A stretch of 64,000 nt of DNA from Kordiimonadales bacterium IMCC3096 (GTDB lineage: Bacteria > Pseudomonadota > Alphaproteobacteria > Minwuiales > Minwuiaceae): assembly GCA_016865035.1 (NCBI GenBank), contig CP018227.1, positions 1,272,001 to 1,336,000 of the forward strand, read 5' to 3'. Made by a program: the position numbers and the translations under genes. Positions 6,779 to 17,206 of the stretch are shown here, one piece after another (the first letter of the stretch is position 1; the number at the start of each line of letters is the position of its first letter). The notes under the pieces were generated by a model. It was not told the origin of the DNA, ran no database searches, and saw only the letters and a program-made list of their open reading frames with translations.

Positions 6779-8149
6779 ATGACGTTGACGGACGACGCAT
6801 TGCGGAATTCAGGGGTCGAGCGGCTGATGCTCGGTTTCTCCAACCTGCGTGAAACGCGTGAGCAGCGACCCATGGTGCTGACCGGCGGCGATGGCATCTA
6901 CGTCATCGACGAGGACGGGCGGCGATTCCTGGATGCCAGCGCATCCTTCTATTGCGCCGCGCTGGGTTACAGCAACGAACGGCTGGTGGCGGCGGCACAT
7001 CGCCAGATGCAGGCCATGCCGTTCTATGTCTCGGCGCAGCAGCGCACGGTTCCCGCCGTCATCGAACTGGCGGAGCGACTGGCAGCGATCGCGCCGGTCA
7101 ACGACGCCCATGTCGCCTTCGGCGCGACAGGGTCTGAAGCGAACGAGTTCGCGCTGAAGTTCATGCTCTACCGCAATACCTGGCGCGGCCAGCCGAAGCG
7201 CCGGAAGATGATCAGCCGCCTCGGCAGCTATCACGGCGGCACCCTGACGACCGCCGGGCTGGGTGGTTCGAAGTCGGTGCATGACGCCTTCGCCCTGCCG
7301 ATGCAGGACCACCTGCTGGTCAGCCAGCCGGACTTCTTCAACAATGGCCTGCCGGGCGAAACGGAGGCCGCCTTCTGCGACCGGCTGATCGCGGAACTGG
7401 AGCAGGTCATCGCCGATGCCGGACCTGAAACCATCGGTGCCTTCGTGGCCGAGCCGCTGAGCTTCTCCGCCGGTCTGGTGATCCCCCCGGAGGGGTATTT
7501 CGCGCGCGTCCAGGCGGTGCTGAAACAGCACGACATCCTGTTCATCGATGACGAGGTGATCACGGGCTATGGACGCACCGGGCAGATGTTCGGGGCCGAG
7601 ACCCTGGGGATCGCACCGGATATCCTCAACAGCGCCAAGGCCATGAGCGGGGCCTATTTCCCGATCTCCGCCACCATCATCGACGGCGACATCTACCGGG
7701 ACATGGAGGCACACAGCGACATGCAGGGCCTGTTCGCCCATGCCGGAACCTTTGCCGGCCACCCGGTGGGTGCGGCAGTGGCGGTGGAGATGCTGAACAT
7801 CGTGGAGGAAACGGACCTGCCCGGCAGTGTCCGCGCCAAGGCCCCCCAGTTCGCCGCCCGCGTGAAGGCGCTGGCCGACCATCCACTGGTGGCGGATGTG
7901 CGCACCATCGGCATGGCCGGGGCAATCCAGCTCAGGTCAGAAGGCGATGGTGCCGTTGCCACCGGCGCACTGGCCGGGGCTGCGAAACAGCTTGCCGCCA
8001 TCGCGCAGGATCACGGGCTGATCATCCGCGTCACCGGCCCCACCGCCATGCTGGCGCCGCCGCTGATCATCACCGAAGCCGAGATCGACCGGATGTTCGA
8101 CCTGTTCACCGGCGCGCTCGATGCTGTGGCGGATCAGGTGATCGCCTGA
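6779..8149 (+). CDS. Class III PLP-dependent aminotransferase
   Basis: A 456-residue fold-type I aminotransferase. Visible hallmarks are GATGSEANEFALK (cofactor phosphate binding), SYHGGTLTT, the Asp of FIDDEVITGYGRTG that pairs with the pyridine nitrogen, and the Schiff-base Lys in NSAKAMSGAYFP. These place it with omega-amino acid and diamine transaminases, but the donor cannot be read from sequence. It is only distantly similar to the second class III enzyme at 15815. ATG 6779 follows GGGGAGA. Its 3' end overlaps the convergent Ldh2-family gene by 16 nt. Confidence 0.9.
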   Translation: MTLTDDALRNSGVERLMLGFSNLRETREQRPMVLTGGDGIYVIDEDGRRFLDASASFYCAALGYSNERLVAAAHRQMQAMPFYVSAQQRTVPAVIELAERLAAIAPVNDAHVAFGATGSEANEFALKFMLYRNTWRGQPKRRKMISRLGSYHGGTLTTAGLGGSKSVHDAFALPMQDHLLVSQPDFFNNGLPGETEAAFCDRLIAELEQVIADAGPETIGAFVAEPLSFSAGLVIPPEGYFARVQAVLKQHDILFIDDEVITGYGRTGQMFGAETLGIAPDILNSAKAMSGAYFPISATIIDGDIYRDMEAHSDMQGLFAHAGTFAGHPVGAAVAVEMLNIVEETDLPGSVRAKAPQFAARVKALADHPLVADVRTIGMAGAIQLRSEGDGAVATGALAGAAKQLAAIAQDHGLIIRVTGPTAMLAPPLIITEAEIDRMFDLFTGALDAVADQVIA

Positions 8150-9135
8150 ATCCGCGCGATCAGGGCCTCGTCGACCGCGACACCGCCCGCCGCCAGGTTG
8201 CGCCGCCGGTTCTCCGCGCGACGCTGTCCGGGCAGGCGCGCGCCGGGCTGATCGGTGATCGCGGCGGCCAGGTCGGTCATGCGTGCCGCGAAACCGGCAC
8301 CGGAGAATGAGGCGGGGTCGAGGGCGATGAAGAACTGGCCTGTCGCAGGCGGCCCACCGGCCGTGCCCGCGAAGGGGCTGGCATCCTTGCCCAGGGTCGC
8401 GCCTGCCAGCACGGCGGCGAACAGTTCCACCATCAGCCCGGTGCCGAAGCCCTTGTAGCCGCCCGCCGGGGCCATCGTGCCCTGCAGTGCCGCGTCGGCG
8501 TCCGTGGTCGGATTGCCGTCGCTGTCATAGGCCCAGCCCTCCGGGATCGGCTTGCCCTCGCGCGCGTGCAGGGTGATCTCGCTCTTGGCGACGACACTCG
8601 CCGACTGGTCGAGGACGAAGGCCGCGCCCCCATCCCCATCCGGCGCGGCCAGCGCGAACGGATTGGTGCCGATGACCTTCCGCGCGCCACCCACCGGCGC
8701 GATGGAGGCCGGAGCATTGGTGAAACCCATCCCCACCAGACCGGCCCCGGCCAGTCGTTCCACGTGATAGCCGAGCACGCCGCAATTGTAGGAATTGCGG
8801 ATCGACAGTGCCGCGACGCCGTGTTCCCGGGCACGCGGCAACAGGGCCTCGAAACCCGCATCGATGGCCGGATGCGCGAAGCCATTGCCCGCATCCACGT
8901 TGACGGCAGTGGTGCCTGAAACATCAACTTCCGGCACTGCCGCGCCGTTCACCTTGCCGCACTGAACATGCTCGCAGTAGATCGGCACATAGATCAGGCC
9001 ATGACTGCGAATGCCGTCCATCTCCGCGGCCGCCACGGCACGGGCCAGTGACTGCGCCGACGCCGGTCGGGTGCCTGCGCGTTGCAGCGCCGCCTCGGCC
9101 AGCGCCGTGATCTCCGTCGCGTTCATCATCGCCAT
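8134..9135 (-). CDS. Ldh2-family NAD(P)H-dependent oxidoreductase (malate/lactate/imino-acid type)
   Basis: The 333-residue protein begins at ATG 9135, with AGGAGC eight bases upstream; a longer frame exists but is not family-like. Motifs are IRSHG with the conserved catalytic His near residue 45, NSYNCGVLGYH, GTNPFALAAPDG, the segment FVLDQSASVVAKSEI and GGYKGFGTGLMVE. This is the Rossmann-unlike Ldh2 fold. Members include malate and sulfolactate dehydrogenases, ureidoglycolate dehydrogenase and delta-1-piperideine-2-carboxylate reductases, so the substrate is an alpha-keto, hydroxy or cyclic imino acid. It is the last gene of a four-gene operon with the DUF3726-like, unknown and M19-like proteins upstream. 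Confidence 0.88.
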   Translation of the reverse strand: MAMMNATEITALAEAALQRAGTRPASAQSLARAVAAAEMDGIRSHGLIYVPIYCEHVQCGKVNGAAVPEVDVSGTTAVNVDAGNGFAHPAIDAGFEALLPRAREHGVAALSIRNSYNCGVLGYHVERLAGAGLVGMGFTNAPASIAPVGGARKVIGTNPFALAAPDGDGGAAFVLDQSASVVAKSEITLHAREGKPIPEGWAYDSDGNPTTDADAALQGTMAPAGGYKGFGTGLMVELFAAVLAGATLGKDASPFAGTAGGPPATGQFFIALDPASFSGAGFAARMTDLAAAITDQPGARLPGQRRAENRRRNLAAGGVAVDEALIARIQAIT

Positions 9136-9160
9136 TGCTCGCTCCTGCTTCCTGTCCGTC

Positions 9161-9772
9161 TCAATCCGTATCCACCAGCCCCGCGCCCGCCCCCGCAGAC
9201 CGGGACGCATCGGTCGAAGGCACCAGGGAGAGGTGGAAGTGTCGTTGCACGATCGTCCAGGCGCTCTGGTCCACGGCGACAAGGCCCGCATGTGCCGTTT
9301 CACCGGACGATCCTGCCCCGCCGCCATCCGCAGACATCACCACGTCGCCCGGCCCGTCGTCAGCCTGAACACCCGTCGGACCGTCGCCGGTCCGTGACGC
9401 GATGCAGGCGATCACCCAACCCGGCACGTCTACATTCCGCACCACCAGCCGGGCGGCCGGATCCTGTTTCAGGACCTGCCACCAGTCCGCGGCAGAAGGG
9501 CCGGATACCAGCGCCGAAAGTGGCCTCTCCCCGTCCGCCATCAACACGGTCGCGGTCTCCGCCGGTTCCTGTTTCACGGCGGTTTCGGCGGCATCCCCGG
9601 TCAGGGAAGCCAGCGCCACCGCCAGCAGGGGTGCCGGATCCCGGCCCTGTTGCGCCAGCCAGACGGCCGTCACCGCCGCATCCTCGGCCAGTCCCCAGGG
9701 CAGCCCTGCGCCAAAGGCTGCCCGACAGCAGTAGAAGGAAAGTTCGCCAAACGAGAGATGCAGCGCGGCCAC
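9161..9772 (-). CDS. DUF3726-like protein
   Basis: A 203-residue protein of unknown function. The N-terminus (LHLSFGELSFYCCRAAFGAGLPWGLAEDAA) has the pattern I associate with DUF3726 proteins: a short helix, a conserved R-A-x-G-A-G segment and G-L-A-E-D/E. No signal peptide or membrane helix is visible. Starting at GTG 9772, it lies four bases after the stop of the 567-residue unknown gene and 25 nt before the Ldh2-family gene. That spacing supports one transcript and a joint role, perhaps as an accessory to the dehydrogenase. The family name is from memory. Confidence 0.65.
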   Translation of the reverse strand: MAALHLSFGELSFYCCRAAFGAGLPWGLAEDAAVTAVWLAQQGRDPAPLLAVALASLTGDAAETAVKQEPAETATVLMADGERPLSALVSGPSAADWWQVLKQDPAARLVVRNVDVPGWVIACIASRTGDGPTGVQADDGPGDVVMSADGGGAGSSGETAHAGLVAVDQSAWTIVQRHFHLSLVPSTDASRSAGAGAGLVDTD

Positions 9773-9776
9773 GGGA

Positions 9777-11480
9777 TCAGTTCACCTGCACGGGCCGGAT
9801 GGCGAAGGCCCAGCCGTCCGGGTCCGCATCCGCCAGACCGTCCGGCTGCGGCGCGCCCTGAAACAGGGTGATGCGGGTCCAGAGATCGGACTTGGGATCG
9901 AATTTCGAGGCCCCGAAGAAGGCCAGCTTGAACCGCAGCAGGTCAATGGGCCGGACCCCGTCCGCCACCAGATTGTCCCGCACCTCCGCATAGTCGAGAC
10001 CGGCGATGGACTGCACCCGGCGCACCGTATGGCGATGCTGCGGGTGGCGGAGCAGGAATGCGGCAACGATGGTGTCGTCCACGGCTTCAGCCTGCGCCAG
10101 ATCGGCCACAAGGCGTCGTATGTCACGGGCGAAGGCGAGCGGCATCTCCAGCATGCCACCGGGTTCGGCGTGACGGTGACCCAGGCGCGGCTCCAGCTTC
10201 TCCTCCGAATAGTACCAGAAACGCGCCTCCGCCTCCGGCCCGTCCAGCGCGAGCGCATCGACCCAGCCCTGTTGTGCCGCGATCAGGCGGCGCAGCTCCG
10301 AAAGCCGCATCGCCGGATCGAGGGCCAGGTGTTCGGACACATGCATCCGGTCCGCCAGATCATCGACCAGCGCGCCATGCGGCTCCAGCAGCAGCGCCAG
10401 CAGCAGTTCCTGCGCCTCCACCCCCAGCCGCGCCTGACCGAACTGCCAGATCCGGTCCCATGGCGTCGTCGCGTCGAGCAGTCCCGGTGCCGCCTCCGAC
10501 AGGCGCGCCAGATCCTGGTGCAGCTCTTCGATCCGCGCCATCTGCTGCGGGTCATCGACCTGCCATTCACTCACATGCTGCCGCGCCCGGACCAGCAACC
10601 GCAGGAAGGCGGCACGTGTTTCATCCGCCCCCTCCGCCAGGGACCGCACCCGCGCCAGCGCCGTCTCCCGCGCGGTCACCCAGGCATGAACCAGTTGGGG
10701 GTGGCGCCCCAGAAAGGGTGCCATGCCCAGCCCGGTGGCATTGCCGACACCCAGAAAATCCCGAACCTCCGGAGCAAGCGGAACGGCGCTGTCGCCGCCA
10801 CGCACCCGCGCCAGATGCTCGATCAGCATCACGGTGAACCAGCGGAACAGCCAGACAGCCAGCATCTCCACCTGGAACGCGCCCTGCAGTTCGGGGCGGT
10901 CGGCAATCAGCGCCCGGTCGCCGCAGCCGAACTTGCCGCTGCCGTAGACGGCGGTGGTGCGCATCAGATAGCCGACGCCGGACAGTGTCCCGATATCCGG
11001 CTGCTGCCCCGCCGAGAGTCGCGCCGTCACATGGCTGAACAGGCGCAGGCTGCGGTTGGCGCGGCCCAGCACCAGCTCCCGCGATGTGAAGCGCCCGGCC
11101 TCCTGCTTCGGGGTATTGGCCGCCAGCCGCGCAATGTCGGCATCGGAGGGGATGCCGTCATACAGGCTGAAGGTCGCGTCCCAGGCCTCCGCGATGACCC
11201 GGTCGGTGCGCTTCTCCGGCGGCAGGTCGTGCGAGAAGACCACCAGCGAATAGGCCTGCTCCGGTGTGTGGGCGGTCAGCACGACAGTGCCGAACCCCTG
11301 CGCATCCAGATCGAAGCGCCGCTGTTCGAATCGCCAGCCCTCCCCATGCATCCGCCGCAGCAGGCTGCGCATGAAACTCAGCCGTGTCGGGAACGAGGCC
11401 CCCATGCGGGACAGGCGCATCACCTCATCGGCGGGGCGCAAAGGCACGGCGGGCGGCGATGTCTGCACCGCTGCCGTCAT
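9777..11480 (-). CDS. Conserved-looking protein of unknown function, 567 residues
   Basis: I do not recognise this family. The ATG at 11480 overlaps the stop of the upstream M19-like gene as ATGA, so the long extension before it is not coding. The protein is soluble-looking, Arg- and Leu-rich and mostly helical in composition. Blocks that look structured are VVLTAHTPEQAYSLVVFSHD, TSRELVLGRANRSLRLFSHV, TTAVYGSGKFGCGDR and IRRLVADLAQAEAVDDTIVA. There are no obvious nucleotide-binding or metal motifs. Its fixed place between the M19-like and DUF3726-like genes ties its role to that operon. Confidence 0.75.
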   Translation of the reverse strand: MTAAVQTSPPAVPLRPADEVMRLSRMGASFPTRLSFMRSLLRRMHGEGWRFEQRRFDLDAQGFGTVVLTAHTPEQAYSLVVFSHDLPPEKRTDRVIAEAWDATFSLYDGIPSDADIARLAANTPKQEAGRFTSRELVLGRANRSLRLFSHVTARLSAGQQPDIGTLSGVGYLMRTTAVYGSGKFGCGDRALIADRPELQGAFQVEMLAVWLFRWFTVMLIEHLARVRGGDSAVPLAPEVRDFLGVGNATGLGMAPFLGRHPQLVHAWVTARETALARVRSLAEGADETRAAFLRLLVRARQHVSEWQVDDPQQMARIEELHQDLARLSEAAPGLLDATTPWDRIWQFGQARLGVEAQELLLALLLEPHGALVDDLADRMHVSEHLALDPAMRLSELRRLIAAQQGWVDALALDGPEAEARFWYYSEEKLEPRLGHRHAEPGGMLEMPLAFARDIRRLVADLAQAEAVDDTIVAAFLLRHPQHRHTVRRVQSIAGLDYAEVRDNLVADGVRPIDLLRFKLAFFGASKFDPKSDLWTRITLFQGAPQPDGLADADPDGWAFAIRPVQVN

Positions 11481-12481
11481 GGGGCCGGACCGAAGGAACG
11501 TTCGAAGAAGTCGAGCCAGTTGCCACCCGCGATCCGCGCCACATCCTCGGCCGAGAAGCCGACTGCGCGCAGCCCGTCGACGATGTTCGCGAAACCGAGA
11601 CTGTCGGCGAACCAGTCCGGCTGTGGCGGGAAGCCCGCGTCGCTGGCGGAGCCTTCGCCGAAGTCCTTCGCGCGGGTCCAGGTGCCGTTGCGCATCCATT
11701 CCACCACCGAATCCGGCTGGTCCTGGCAGAGGTCGCTGCCGAAGCCGATGTGCTCCACGCCCATCAGTTCCGCCGCCTGCGCCACCATGGTGCAGAAACC
11801 GTCCACGGTGCAGTCGGACTTGCCCGCCAGATGATGCGGATAGAGGGAAAAGCCGAGCATTCCGCCACTCTGCCCCAGGGCGCGCAGCACCGCGTCGGAC
11901 TTGTTGCGCAGGGCCGGATGCCAGAACGACGGATTGGCGTGGGTGATGGCGATGGGGCGGCTGGAATGCTCGATGGCCTCCAGCGTCGAACGCTCCGCCG
12001 AATGGCTCATGTCCACCACCACCCCGACCCTGTTCATCTCCGCGATGACCTGTCGGCCCATGCGGGTGATGCCGGGGTCCTCCGCCTCGTAGCAGCCGGT
12101 CGCGAGCAGGCTCTGGTTGTTGTAGGAGAGCTGCATGAAGCGCGCGCCGAGCTGGTGCCAGACCTCGACCAGGCCGATGTCATCCTCGATCGGGGACGGG
12201 TTCTGGAAGCCGAAGATGATCGCCGTCCGCCCGCTGTCGCGCGCCGCCAGCACATCCGCCGCCGTGCGCCCCGGCACGATCAGGTCGGGGTAGGCCTCGA
12301 AGCGGCGGTTCCAGGCGATGACATTCTCCACCGTCTCCCGGAAGTCCTCGTGATAGCAGATGGTGACATGCACGCAGGCGAGGCCCACCGCGTTCATCTG
12401 CCGGAAGATCGCCTCCGACCAGTTGCTGTACTGCAACCCGTCGATCAGCAGCGGCACATCCGCCCGCCTCGCATCCACCAT
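11477..12481 (-). CDS. Peptidase family M19 (membrane dipeptidase-like) protein with altered metal site
   Basis: A 334-residue TIM-barrel amidohydrolase of the renal dipeptidase family, first in its operon (ATG 12481 after GGGAGG). Retained family features are FMQLSYNNQ, the zinc-ligand histidines in VDMSHSAE and ITHANPS, the C-terminal Asp in HIGFGSDLCQD, and a VARIAGGNWLDFF tail that normally reads IAGGNWLR. The usual first motif D-G-H-N-D, which gives two metal ligands, reads D-G-L-Q-Y at residues 14-18, so His and Asp are replaced. It has no signal peptide or lipid anchor and should be cytoplasmic. It may use one metal, act on a different substrate, or be non-hydrolytic. Confidence 0.85.
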   Translation of the reverse strand: MVDARRADVPLLIDGLQYSNWSEAIFRQMNAVGLACVHVTICYHEDFRETVENVIAWNRRFEAYPDLIVPGRTAADVLAARDSGRTAIIFGFQNPSPIEDDIGLVEVWHQLGARFMQLSYNNQSLLATGCYEAEDPGITRMGRQVIAEMNRVGVVVDMSHSAERSTLEAIEHSSRPIAITHANPSFWHPALRNKSDAVLRALGQSGGMLGFSLYPHHLAGKSDCTVDGFCTMVAQAAELMGVEHIGFGSDLCQDQPDSVVEWMRNGTWTRAKDFGEGSASDAGFPPQPDWFADSLGFANIVDGLRAVGFSAEDVARIAGGNWLDFFERSFGPAP

Positions 12482-13573: not shown

Positions 13574-14002
13574 TCAACCGCTGTCCGGGTCGCGATAGAT
13601 CGGCCCCCGGTCGATCACCGGCTGCAACAGGTTGTCGCGCATGTAGTCGTGTTCCTCATCGACGGTCGCCGGGCGCTGTTCCTGACCGCGGTAGCCCATG
13701 ATCTGCCGCACCTCCGGCATCATGTAGTAGGCGGAGGAAGCGACCAGCCCGATGGTGGCGAGTCCGTCCGGGTCTTCCCGGTTCAGGCGCTCCGCGGCCG
13801 CGGCAGCCGCCTCCCCTGCCCCGACCCGGTCCAGCGCCTGGTTCAGGCTCCCGGTCAGTTCGGGCCGCAGTGCCAGTACGTGATCGACCATTGCATCGAC
13901 GTCGCCCGCGTCCGTGAAGCGGGGCATGCCCAGGGCCGCCGGGATCAGGACATCACCGATGGCATTCAGCGCCGCGCGCCGGGTGTCGGACAGGGCATTC
14001 AT
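13574..14002 (-). CDS. Gluconate 2-dehydrogenase subunit 3-like small subunit
   Basis: A 142-residue protein whose ATG at 14002 overlaps the stop of the GMC oxidoreductase gene as ATGA. The sequence (ALNAIGDVLIPAALGMPRFTDAGDVDAMVDHVL, later YYMMPEVRQIMGYRGQE) resembles the helical subunit 3 of membrane gluconate dehydrogenases, which partners a GMC flavoprotein. Many members carry a Tat signal that exports the complex, but this one has no twin-arginine motif and no signal peptide. There is no cytochrome c subunit beside it. Its electron acceptor is therefore unclear. Confidence 0.75.
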   Translation of the reverse strand: MNALSDTRRAALNAIGDVLIPAALGMPRFTDAGDVDAMVDHVLALRPELTGSLNQALDRVGAGEAAAAAAERLNREDPDGLATIGLVASSAYYMMPEVRQIMGYRGQEQRPATVDEEHDYMRDNLLQPVIDRGPIYRDPDSG

Positions 14003-15612
14003 GATGCAACCCTCTGGTCGGCGCGGGTCTCGATCATGTGCATCACCGAGCGGAGCGCGATGGCACAGATCGTGGCGGTGGGGTTGAACCCTGACGAGGT
14101 GACGAAGGTGCTGCCGTCCAGCACATGCAGGTTGGGCACATCGTGGCTGGTGCCCCACTGGTCCAGCACGGAGGTCTCGGGGTCATTGCCCATGCGGCAG
14201 GTGCCCATCAGATGCCAGCCGCAATCCCGCATCAGGGTGGTGGTGGAGATGCTCTTGGCGCCCGCAGCCTCCATCGCCTCCCGCTGCCGGTCCAGGTGGA
14301 AGGCGATCAGCTTCTCCGTGTTGTCGGAGTTGCGGTAGATGATCTTCGGGCTGGGGATGCCGTCCGTGTCCGTCAGGCTGTCGTCCAGCACGACACGGTT
14401 CTCCGGGTCCGGCAGGTCTTCGGCGATGATCCCCCATTCGAAGGAATGGCCGAAGCGCTTCTGCGTCGCCCGGTGCAGGTTCTCGCCCCAGGCTTCCTCC
14501 AGCGGTGCGCCGCCATAGGCGGAGCGCATGCCCAGCGGCCCGCCGGTCGGCATGGCATTCCACTTCGCGCCCCTGACGAAGCCGCGTGACTTGTCGGTCT
14601 CGTAGAACTGCATCGAATGGATCGCCTGCCCCGCCGGGCCGAGCCAGCTGTCGAGAGGCTCGTCGAAATAGCCGACGGTGGCGGCATAGGGGTGCATCAT
14701 CAGGTTGCGCCCCACCAGCCCCGACGAATTGGCCAGCCCGCCTGCGAACCGGTCACCGCCGGAGAGCAGCAGCAGGCGCGGCGTGCCGACCCCATTGGCA
14801 CAGACAATCACCTTTTCCGCCCGCTGGTGATGCTCCACCCCGTCGCGGTCGATCCAGATCGCGCCGCTGGCCAGCCCCTGCGCATTCACCGTGATCTCCC
14901 GCACCCGTGCGCCGGTGATCAGTTGTGCGCCGTGGGCAATCGCATCCGGCCAGTGGGTCAGGTCGGTGGAGGCCTTGGCCTGTTCCGGGCAGCCCTGCAT
15001 GCAGGTGCCACGGCGGGCGCACTGGCTGCGACCGCGGTAGGCGCGCGACGGGATGGCCTGCGGTGCGGGCCACCAGTGCCAGCCGAGTTCGTTCATGCCC
15101 TTCGCCGCCAGCCGCCCGATCCTGCCGATGGGCAGCGGCGGCAGCGGGGGCGGTGTCATTGGCGGATAGGCCGGGTCCCCGGCCAGGCCGGACACTCCCA
15201 TCTCCACATCCATGTGATCGTAGAAGGGTTCCAGATCCTGATAGGTGAAGGGCCAGTCGTCAGCCACGCCGTCAAGGCTCCTCACGCGGAAGTCGGAGGG
15301 CATGAAGCGTTGCCAGTGGGCCGCATAGATCAGCGTGGAGCCGCCAACACCCGCGAACATCAGCGGGTTCACATCCGACTCGCTGGTGTCGATGGGATAA
15401 TCCGTGGCCAGCCCCCGCACGTTGGGGTTCGGATGCCAAAGCCGCTGCGACATCAGCTCCCATTCCGGCTTGTCGCCGTAGAATTCGTCCGATGAGACCT
15501 CGCGGCCCTGTTCCAGACAGACAACCCCGACCCCGGCTTCCGCCAGATGCTTCGCCGCTACGGCGCCGGATGCACCGGCCCCGATGATCAGCACCTCGGC
15601 AATCTCACCCAT
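13999..15612 (-). CDS. GMC-family flavin oxidoreductase, large subunit
   Basis: A 537-residue FAD enzyme starting at ATG 15612 after GGGGGTGG. The dinucleotide-binding motif is VLIIGAGASGAVAAKHL, followed by CLEQG. Residues near 75-95 (NVRGLATDYPI...FAGVGGSTL) contain the GMC FAD-contact region. The C-terminus holds the catalytic pair His (CGWHLMGTCRMG) and Asn (SSGFNPTATICA). A Cys-rich stretch (SQCARRGTCMQGCPEQAKAS) is typical of gluconate/sorbitol-dehydrogenase-like members. It likely oxidises a sugar or alcohol with the small subunit encoded next. No export signal is seen. The substrate is unknown. Confidence 0.9.
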   Translation of the reverse strand: MGEIAEVLIIGAGASGAVAAKHLAEAGVGVVCLEQGREVSSDEFYGDKPEWELMSQRLWHPNPNVRGLATDYPIDTSESDVNPLMFAGVGGSTLIYAAHWQRFMPSDFRVRSLDGVADDWPFTYQDLEPFYDHMDVEMGVSGLAGDPAYPPMTPPPLPPLPIGRIGRLAAKGMNELGWHWWPAPQAIPSRAYRGRSQCARRGTCMQGCPEQAKASTDLTHWPDAIAHGAQLITGARVREITVNAQGLASGAIWIDRDGVEHHQRAEKVIVCANGVGTPRLLLLSGGDRFAGGLANSSGLVGRNLMMHPYAATVGYFDEPLDSWLGPAGQAIHSMQFYETDKSRGFVRGAKWNAMPTGGPLGMRSAYGGAPLEEAWGENLHRATQKRFGHSFEWGIIAEDLPDPENRVVLDDSLTDTDGIPSPKIIYRNSDNTEKLIAFHLDRQREAMEAAGAKSISTTTLMRDCGWHLMGTCRMGNDPETSVLDQWGTSHDVPNLHVLDGSTFVTSSGFNPTATICAIALRSVMHMIETRADQRVAS

Positions 15613-15814: not shown

Positions 15815-17206
15815 ATGAACGATATCGGCAATTCCCCGGCAGCCCGGGACATCCGCAACCTGATCCATCCCTACACCAATCTCGACCTGCATCGCACCAA
15901 GGGTCCGCTGATCATCGAGAAGGGCAAGGGCGTCCGCGTCTGGGATGACGAGGGCAAGGAATATATCGAGGGCATGGCGGGCCTGTGGTGCGCGTCCTTC
16001 GGTTTCGGCGAGGAGGAGCTGATCGACGCTGCGGTCGAGCAGATGCGCAAGCTGCCGTTCTATCACCAGTTCGGCCACAAGAGCTCCATGCCCTCCATCG
16101 AACTGGCGGAGAAGCTGATCGAGATCGCGCCGAAGGCCATGTCGAAGGTGTTCTTCGCCAACTCCGGTTCCGAGGCCAATGACTGCCAGGTCAAGCTGCA
16201 GTGGTACGTCAACAATGCGCTCGGTCGCCCGGAGAAGAAGAAGATCCTGGCGCGGGAGAAGGGCTATCACGGTGTCACCGTCGCCGCCGCCTCGCTGACC
16301 GGCCTGCCCGCGAACCATGCCGAATTCGACCTGCCCATCGCCGGAATCGGTCATGTCTCCATGGCGTTCCCCTATCGCGGCATGCAGCCGGGCGAGACGG
16401 AAGAGGAATATTCCACCCGCCTGGCGCAGGAGCTGGAGGAGCGGATCATTCAGGAGGGGCCGGAAACGGTTGCCGCCTTCATCGCCGAGCCCGTCTGCGG
16501 TGCCGGTGGCGTGCTGGTTCCGCCCGCGGGCTACTTCCCGAAGATCCAGGCCGTGCTGCGCAAGTACGACGTGATGATGATTGCCGACGAGGTCATCTGC
16601 GGCTTCGGCCGGACCGGCAACATGTGGGGCTGCGAAACCTTTGACATCGAGCCGGATTCCATGTCCGTCGCCAAGCAGCTCTCCAGTGCCTACCAGCCGA
16701 TCTCCGGCATCATGGTCAATGACCGCATCTTCGATGCCATGGTCGACCAGTCGAAGAAGATCGGCACCTTTGCCCACGGCTTCACCTACTCGGCGCATCC
16801 GGTCGCCGCTGCCGTCGCACTGCGCACCATGCAGCTGATGGAAGAGCGGAAGATCATGGACCACGTGCGGGAGATCGCTCCGGTGATGCAGAAGCGCCTG
16901 CATTCCTTCGCCGATCATCCGCTGGTCGGCAACACCCGCGGTGTCGGTCTGGTCGGTGCCATCGAGCTGGTGGCCGACAAGGCGACGGGCAAGCCGTTCA
17001 ATCCGAAGCAGATGGTCGGTGCCTATTGCATGGGCCAGGCCCAGGAACACGGCCTGATCACCCGCGCCATGGGCGATGCGCTGGGCTTCTGCCCGCCGCT
17101 CGTCATCACCGCGGAAGAGATCAACTTGATGTTCGACAGCTTCGAGAAGGCCCTGGACGACACCACCCTGTGGGTCGAGAAGGAAGGCCTGCGCGCCGCC
17201 GCCTGA
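15815..17206 (+). CDS. Class III omega-aminotransferase (amine/diamine to pyruvate type)
   Basis: A 463-residue PLP enzyme. ATG 15815 is preceded by GGAGGA. Hallmarks are GLWCASFGFG near residue 60, FFANSGSEANDCQVKL, EKGYHGVTVAAASL, IADEVICGFGRTGNMWGCE and the cofactor Lys in SVAKQLSSAYQPIS. The MAGLWC and KLPFYHQFGHKS regions resemble omega-amine:pyruvate transaminases, which accept putrescine, GABA or aromatic amines. Neighbours do not define the physiological amine. The gene stands alone, divergent from the GMC operon and followed by a palindromic repeat. Confidence 0.9.
   Translation: MNDIGNSPAARDIRNLIHPYTNLDLHRTKGPLIIEKGKGVRVWDDEGKEYIEGMAGLWCASFGFGEEELIDAAVEQMRKLPFYHQFGHKSSMPSIELAEKLIEIAPKAMSKVFFANSGSEANDCQVKLQWYVNNALGRPEKKKILAREKGYHGVTVAAASLTGLPANHAEFDLPIAGIGHVSMAFPYRGMQPGETEEEYSTRLAQELEERIIQEGPETVAAFIAEPVCGAGGVLVPPAGYFPKIQAVLRKYDVMMIADEVICGFGRTGNMWGCETFDIEPDSMSVAKQLSSAYQPISGIMVNDRIFDAMVDQSKKIGTFAHGFTYSAHPVAAAVALRTMQLMEERKIMDHVREIAPVMQKRLHSFADHPLVGNTRGVGLVGAIELVADKATGKPFNPKQMVGAYCMGQAQEHGLITRAMGDALGFCPPLVITAEEINLMFDSFEKALDDTTLWVEKEGLRAAA

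Follow-up and report, generated by a model that had tools for sequence, protein, structure and literature searches.

A 64,000-nt stretch of the genome of Kordiimonadales bacterium IMCC3096 (contig CP018227.1; hereafter the window, whose positions serve as coordinates for the operon) carries a four-gene operon on its minus strand at 8134–12481, in the order M19-like gene, U567, DUF3726, Ldh2. The first gene (11477..12481) encodes a 334-aa amidohydrolase-fold protein matching Pfam Peptidase_M19 (3.7e-70), and shares an ATGA overlap with the second (9777..11480), whose 567-aa product, here called U567, belongs to no family and is matched by neither Pfam nor NCBIfam. A 4-nt gap leads to the gene of a 203-aa DUF3726 protein (9161..9772, GTG start; Pfam DUF3726 2e-7, 31.2 bits against a cut-off of 22.1), and a 25-nt gap to that of a 333-aa Ldh2-family reductase (8134..9135, ATG at 9135; Pfam Ldh_2, PF02615, 1.9e-99, 333.4 bits against a cut-off of 38.8). 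An NCBIfam scan assigned none of the four proteins over its cut-off. The order, the tight coupling and the absence of a known function for U567, all claimed in an earlier note made from the letters of this DNA, were found as described. No aldehyde dehydrogenase (ALDH), LysR or transporter gene adjoins the operon in the window.

The neighbourhood was compared across two samples. A scan of genomes for U567 yielded 248 relatives; the 80 best-scoring loci among them were retained, and 37 further loci chosen for variety or as near relatives brought the total to 117; separately, 385 alphaproteobacterial genomes were drawn from the class, 52 of them U567-positive (fragments and distant relatives included) and 333 U567-negative. 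DUF3726 comes after U567 in 77 of the 80 loci. The misses comprise a locus with a broken U567 frame, where DUF3726 is nevertheless visible by gene listing (L023), one whose sequence stops ~270 bp past the U567 match (L079), and one in which no DUF3726 was detectable (L048). An M19 gene is present in 69/80 loci, mostly directly upstream of U567 and sometimes with a transporter in between. Ldh2 is the least constant member: it was counted by eye directly downstream in at least 20/80 loci, with the complete four-gene set seen in at least 18/80, both numbers being lower bounds because of contig ends (the Ldh2 count excludes L017, whose distant Ldh2 lies upstream, and includes L070 despite its poorly matching frame). 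Among the alphaproteobacterial genomes, an M19 protein of ≥50% identity occurs in 46/52 U567-positive versus 2/333 U567-negative members, and 44/52 of the former have an M19 match of E ≤ 1e-60 no more than 3 kb away from U567. The linkage is not due to chance, and M19-U567-DUF3726 forms a conserved unit. The proposal that the genes serve one pathway is thereby supported; the expectation that the whole set stays together across genomes holds for this unit and only halfway for Ldh2. The U567-DUF3726 pair is kept even in loci without M19, ALDH and Ldh2 (L029, L045, L085). Carriers of U567 include Minwuia, SAR324, SAR116, Rhodobacteraceae, Rhizobiaceae and gammaproteobacteria, as well as genomes of 1.2–1.4 Mb.

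Both recognizable enzymes of the operon have altered residues at active-site positions. The M19-like protein shares its Pfam family with the M19 dipeptidases (renal dipeptidase, GliJ) and, like them, has the two His, the Arg and the Asp of the conserved motifs, which are kept in 91 relatives, but the Glu that serves as a metal ligand is replaced by Gln. This Gln, which aligns to the Glu of G-x-E-G in 3id7 and GliJ, is found in 91/91 relatives of ≥55% identity, a count with several copies from one genome, and in 6/6 more distant ones; the nearest PDB relative, the amidohydrolase 2i5g, shares both this Gln and an N-terminal DGL with it. The Pfam match begins at profile position 36, leaving the first 35 positions unmatched, and it is this N-terminal part of the profile that contains the HxD metal motif. 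Because Gln replaces the metal-ligand Glu, the usual peptide hydrolysis is unlikely, so that of the substrates suggested in the earlier note a small peptide is disfavoured, whereas a cyclic nitrogen compound remains likely. The Ldh2 protein has as its nearest PDB relative 1wtj, a delta1-piperideine-2-carboxylate reductase of the DpkA type (3.7e-55). With DpkA (delta1-piperideine-2-carboxylate reductase/N-methyl-L-amino acid dehydrogenase) it has in common the Ldh2 family and the SHG motif with the catalytic His, but it differs by a Tyr at the place of the catalytic-site Arg, which is R58 in Pseudomonas syringae DpkA (PMC6775277). Tyr occupies this place in 34/36 aligned Ldh2 frames (window included, some of them same-genome copies); the exceptions are a Trp in L017 and an Arg in the distant L117, while L070 has the Tyr but lacks SHG.

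For the two remaining proteins we turned to structure. Prediction for U567, suggested in the earlier note, gave a confident model (predicted local distance difference test, pLDDT, 89.8; predicted template modelling score, pTM, 0.92), for which a fold search of the whole model against the PDB found no match, E being 0.87 or higher and Z 5.0 or lower throughout; a single domain may still have a known fold. A U567 profile recovered only two coiled-coil chains from the PDB sequences (E 0.64 and 5.1), and the comparison of 61 members with Pfam gave only scattered weak matches, the best of them CHASE3 at 9e-5 in one member. U567 was also considered as a relative of Ldh2, for which a profile comparison gave no support. 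Eighty columns do not vary across the 61 sequences, and Arg, Trp, Asp and Glu are common in them.

DUF3726, by contrast with U567, has a recognizable predicted fold. Its model (pLDDT 90.3) retrieved Ldh2 enzymes in all of the first 27 Foldseek rows, with a best E of 2.3e-4 and six rows at E ≤ 0.001, and it superimposes on Ldh2 structures with Z 10.1–12.4 (15 entries) over 150–177 residues at a root-mean-square deviation of 3.2–3.9 and 9–15% identity, the next unrelated row having Z 5.1. The N-termini fall into register in a weak profile comparison (first 53 columns; E 0.001 in one comparison, probability 21%), and in a forced global alignment the C-termini also coincide. As modelled, DUF3726 is a shortened Ldh2 fold: the aligned ranges run mostly from end to end of the Ldh2 chain with about half of its residues aligned, and a large middle part is therefore missing, which would hold much of the cofactor region. 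A term search for DUF3726 found no paper in the literature collection searched. The Ldh2-like predicted fold offers a first structural handle on this Pfam family of unknown function. In Mesorhizobium sp. 131-2-1 a single 2445-bp gene named as a DUF3726 protein (L093:9950-12394) spans the U567 match; provided that the annotation holds, this is a natural U567-DUF3726 fusion, a single case.

The substrate is best approached from the fuller clusters that surround relatives of the operon. On a plasmid of Phaeobacter inhibens 2.10 (PGA2_RS18625 to RS18655), genes for LysR, ALDH, M19, BCCT, U567, DUF3726 and Ldh2 stand together, adjoined by sarcosine-oxidase-type genes and a helix-turn-helix regulator; a Sulfitobacter plasmid has the same set but without Ldh2. 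A Shinella plasmid combines a LysR/ALDH/M19/U567/DUF3726/Ldh2 core with OpuA genes and purU, sarcosine-oxidase-type genes lying nearby, and plasmids of Aminobacter and Tritonibacter carry LysR, ALDH, M19, U567, DUF3726 and Ldh2 with BCCT or OpuA genes. In Pseudomonas sp. MPC6 the set is divided into two divergent halves, with no Ldh2 shown. Since ALDH, LysR and transporter genes are absent beside it, the window operon is a reduced version of this cluster. Across the 80 loci, an ALDH gene is found in 28 by clustering (30 by a looser count) and a LysR gene in 13. The one clustered ALDH that was scanned, that of L054, has 2,5-dioxovalerate and alpha-ketoglutaric semialdehyde dehydrogenases as its best models, below their cut-offs, types that fit an expected C5 semialdehyde substrate. 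Transporters include BCCT in 8 of the 80 loci and ProX-type proteins in 10. Within the 52 U567-positive genomes, 7/34 BCCT genes are 10 kb or less away from U567 (0.24 expected if random), as are 6/112 OpuAC genes (0.83 expected), in counts for which gene pieces were merged, distances judged by eye and genome sizes rounded.

On this basis, we consider it probable that the operon supplies the core enzymes for degrading a heterocyclic betaine with an N-methyl group to N-methylglutamate, homarine (N-methylpicolinate) being the most likely substrate. The computed part of this reading consists of gene linkage, transporter proximity, co-occurrence with genes of the sarcosine-oxidase/Mgd type, the DUF3726 fold and the altered M19 and Ldh2 residues, from which we infer substrate and chemistry. 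U567 and DUF3726 would be the two subunits of a single enzyme by which the N-methylpyridinium ring is attacked and opened; the one-carbon unit remaining on the nitrogen, either N-formyl or hydroxymethyl, would then be taken off by the M19-like protein, an aldehyde dehydrogenase would oxidize the newly formed C5 aldehyde, and Ldh2, as a putative N-methyl-imine reductase, would reduce the N-methyl imine or enamine to N-methylglutamate. An MgdABCD/sarcosine-oxidase-type complex encoded elsewhere in the genome could finally convert N-methylglutamate to glutamate. By our arithmetic, homarine (C7H7NO2) would have to lose one carbon to become N-methylglutamate (C6H11NO4). In an O2-free version, homarine + 3 H2O would yield N-methylglutamate + formaldehyde, with the Ldh2 and ALDH steps in balance; if U567/DUF3726 acted as an oxygenase, homarine + O2 + 2[H] + 2 H2O would give N-methylglutamate + formate. 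In both versions, U567-DUF3726 is the operon's remaining candidate for ring opening.

Two described or reported systems invite comparison. A homarine catabolic pathway was published by Ferrer-Gonzalez et al. in 2026 (Nat Microbiol). Its operon is reportedly named homABCDER, and its hosts are reportedly Rhodobacterales, SAR116 and SAR11; Rhodobacteraceae and SAR116 are among the named carriers of U567, while SAR11 is merely hinted at by the genomes of 1.2–1.4 Mb. The five enzyme-like genes plus LysR of the full clusters would fit that name, and the characterization of the operon as undescribed in the earlier note is therefore probably wrong; the window version has no ALDH, LysR or transporter. 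The other system, trigonelline (N-methylnicotinate) degradation, likewise has later aldehyde dehydrogenase and hydrolase steps. Its enzymes TgnA/TgnB also bring about ring opening of a pyridine carboxylate with an N-methyl group, and they are argued to be unlikely to act on homarine (PMC8269262). Members of the flavin monooxygenase and flavin reductase families (TgnAB-type) were not found among the four operon proteins with Pfam or NCBIfam.

A connection to N-methylglutamate is suggested by gene content at the level of whole genomes. Mgd participates in homarine catabolism according to a paper citing the 2026 study (PMC13390433), and MgdABCD (N-methylglutamate dehydrogenase) is described as resembling heterotetrameric sarcosine oxidase (PMC3160333). 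Alpha subunits of the sarcosine-oxidase type (E 1e-200 or better) are encoded in 49/52 U567-positive versus 98/333 U567-negative genomes, relatedness being uncontrolled and the counts referring to a type that covers both Mgd and sarcosine oxidase. Within the flanks of U567 an alpha gene is found in 7/117 loci, six of them among the 37 further loci (L094, L102, L105, L106, L118 and L124), where L094 and L124 are near relatives and L105 and L106 come from genomes of 1.2–1.3 Mb. In the genome of the window, a GlxA/AraC-type regulator stands divergent to sarcosine-oxidase-type beta and alpha genes (L132:6099-12123), a candidate Mgd locus, and one gene with a Glu_synthase domain is present; the glutamate-synthase-like gene set is known as Mgs. 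A SAR116 locus (L081:17297-21656) contains Mgs-like glutamine-amidotransferase and glutamate-synthase-like frames 6–10 kb beyond U567, near which, by eye and with no NCBIfam hit, lies a formamidase-looking frame. RidA-type genes, which weakly fit an imine or enamine intermediate, are found inside the flanks of 6/117 loci, two of them from Sinorhizobium meliloti.

Several points weigh against homarine as the substrate. These genes are presumed, from its reported name and hosts, to be those of the 2026 homarine operon. In the window the missing ALDH, LysR and transporter neighbours leave the cluster incomplete, and the best homologue of the clustered ALDH in the same genome has only 38% identity, so either another ALDH must serve or the substrate differs. 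An ordinary imino-acid reductase would not be expected to carry Tyr in place of Arg. The genome-level association with sarcosine-oxidase-type genes could stem in part from common descent and habitat. Among the 80 loci, their alpha subunit is encoded within the flanks of just one, L075, by a weak partial match, and their two loci in the window genome are unlinked to the operon, at 1.7 and 2.5 Mb from it; RidA genes are found in 0/80 loci within the flanks. PotD-type transporters, present in 15/80 loci, are nearly as frequent as BCCT or ProX-type ones taken together (18/80). Ruegeria pomeroyi grew worse on homarine than on trigonelline in one study (PMC8269262), while another has it drawing homarine down quickly (PMC12817926). 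Finally, the loci with PotD-type transporters and the U567 relatives in S. meliloti, Natrinema and Mesorhizobium ciceri indicate that relatives of U567 are used in more than one setting, so that the substrate in the window could be another than homarine. The Natrinema relative (32% identity) is plasmid-borne in Natrinema versiforme, a haloarchaeon (L098:9091-11621), followed by a hypothetical gene and with a BCCT gene near. A dimethylsulfoniopropionate demethylase gene, over its NCBIfam cut-off, is located ~0.6 kb past DUF3726 in a 1.4-Mb genome (L107:12314-13420), with a minus-strand open reading frame in between.

The most probable alternative is that the operon degrades another betaine or N-methylated amino acid, such as proline betaine, hydroxyproline betaine, a carnitine-like compound or N-methylproline, likewise by removing methyl groups and oxidizing a semialdehyde. 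We regard it as unlikely: many betaines are handled by BCCT/OpuA transporters and by neighbours of the sarcosine-oxidase, Rieske and dimethylglycine-dehydrogenase-like kinds, but Rieske genes appear in 0/80 loci and in 4/37 further loci, hence there is none in the core, the hosts suit those reported for homarine, and the ALDH type suits a C5 semialdehyde. It is rather improbable that U567 and DUF3726 are accessory proteins, chaperones or regulators linked by operon inheritance, with an unlinked enzyme making the first step. The lack of a known fold for U567 and the alignment of DUF3726 to about half of the Ldh2 chain residues would allow such a role, but the many invariant Arg, Trp, Asp and Glu residues of U567 are enzyme-like, and the pair survives where M19, ALDH and Ldh2 are gone.

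The class-III aminotransferase that ends beside the operon bears on a further alternative. Encoded on the plus strand (6779..8149; Pfam Aminotran_3 1.9e-79), it shares 16 bp of its 3' region with the 3' end of Ldh2 and thus does converge on the operon, as the earlier note had it; as a general partner, however, it falls short, since class-III aminotransferases are found in 12/80 loci and the arrangement of the window in only three, the close loci L012–L014. Judging from these neighbourhoods, it appears to be a neighbour within the genus and at most a candidate member of the pathway. A second class-III aminotransferase gene lies in the window at 15815-17206(+). That the operon, with the aminotransferase taking part, acts on a non-methylated cyclic or modified amino acid, a small peptide or a polyamine-like compound seems the least probable reading, because although PotD-type transporters, class-III aminotransferases and a distant S. 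meliloti subfamily beside PotD-type ABC genes, an aminotransferase, an ALDH-like frame and RidA speak for it, the Gln of M19 makes the usual peptide hydrolysis unlikely, betaine transporters are enriched near U567, and the aminotransferase arrangement is confined to the genus. The S. meliloti set, on pSymB (L097:8214-19662), comprises distant U567, DUF3726 and M19 genes, IclR, PotD-type ABC genes, a class-III aminotransferase and RidA.

Catabolism of homarine by this operon, the reading we prefer, would be of consequence for marine carbon. Homarine was reported to make up as much as 3% of surface-ocean particulate carbon (PMC8269262), and an author correction states that homarine concentrations had been overstated (PMC10134881); despite the correction, it is still an abundant algal osmolyte. 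Many marine bacteria, and some from soil, have closely related operons, and if the operon is a homarine sink, U567 and DUF3726 would be marker genes of that carbon flow, and the opening of an N-methylpyridinium ring would employ a protein without a solved relative in fold searches. What is found here is a predicted Ldh2-like fold of DUF3726, a U567 without a solved match, an annotated fusion of the two, and the losses of the M19 Glu and the Ldh2 Arg. More tentatively, and with less confidence than we place in the homarine assignment, U567 and DUF3726 might represent a new class of ring-opening enzymes, composed of a large subunit without a fold match and a shortened, substrate-holding Ldh2 relative that lacks the mid-chain; with varied helpers, such a pair might act on the rings of several N-heterocycles, its hosts being marine bacteria, rhizobia and haloarchaea. 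Elsewhere in the window, on the minus strand at 13574-15612, a GMC oxidoreductase gene is followed, with a 4-bp overlap, by that of a 142-aa protein without a family.

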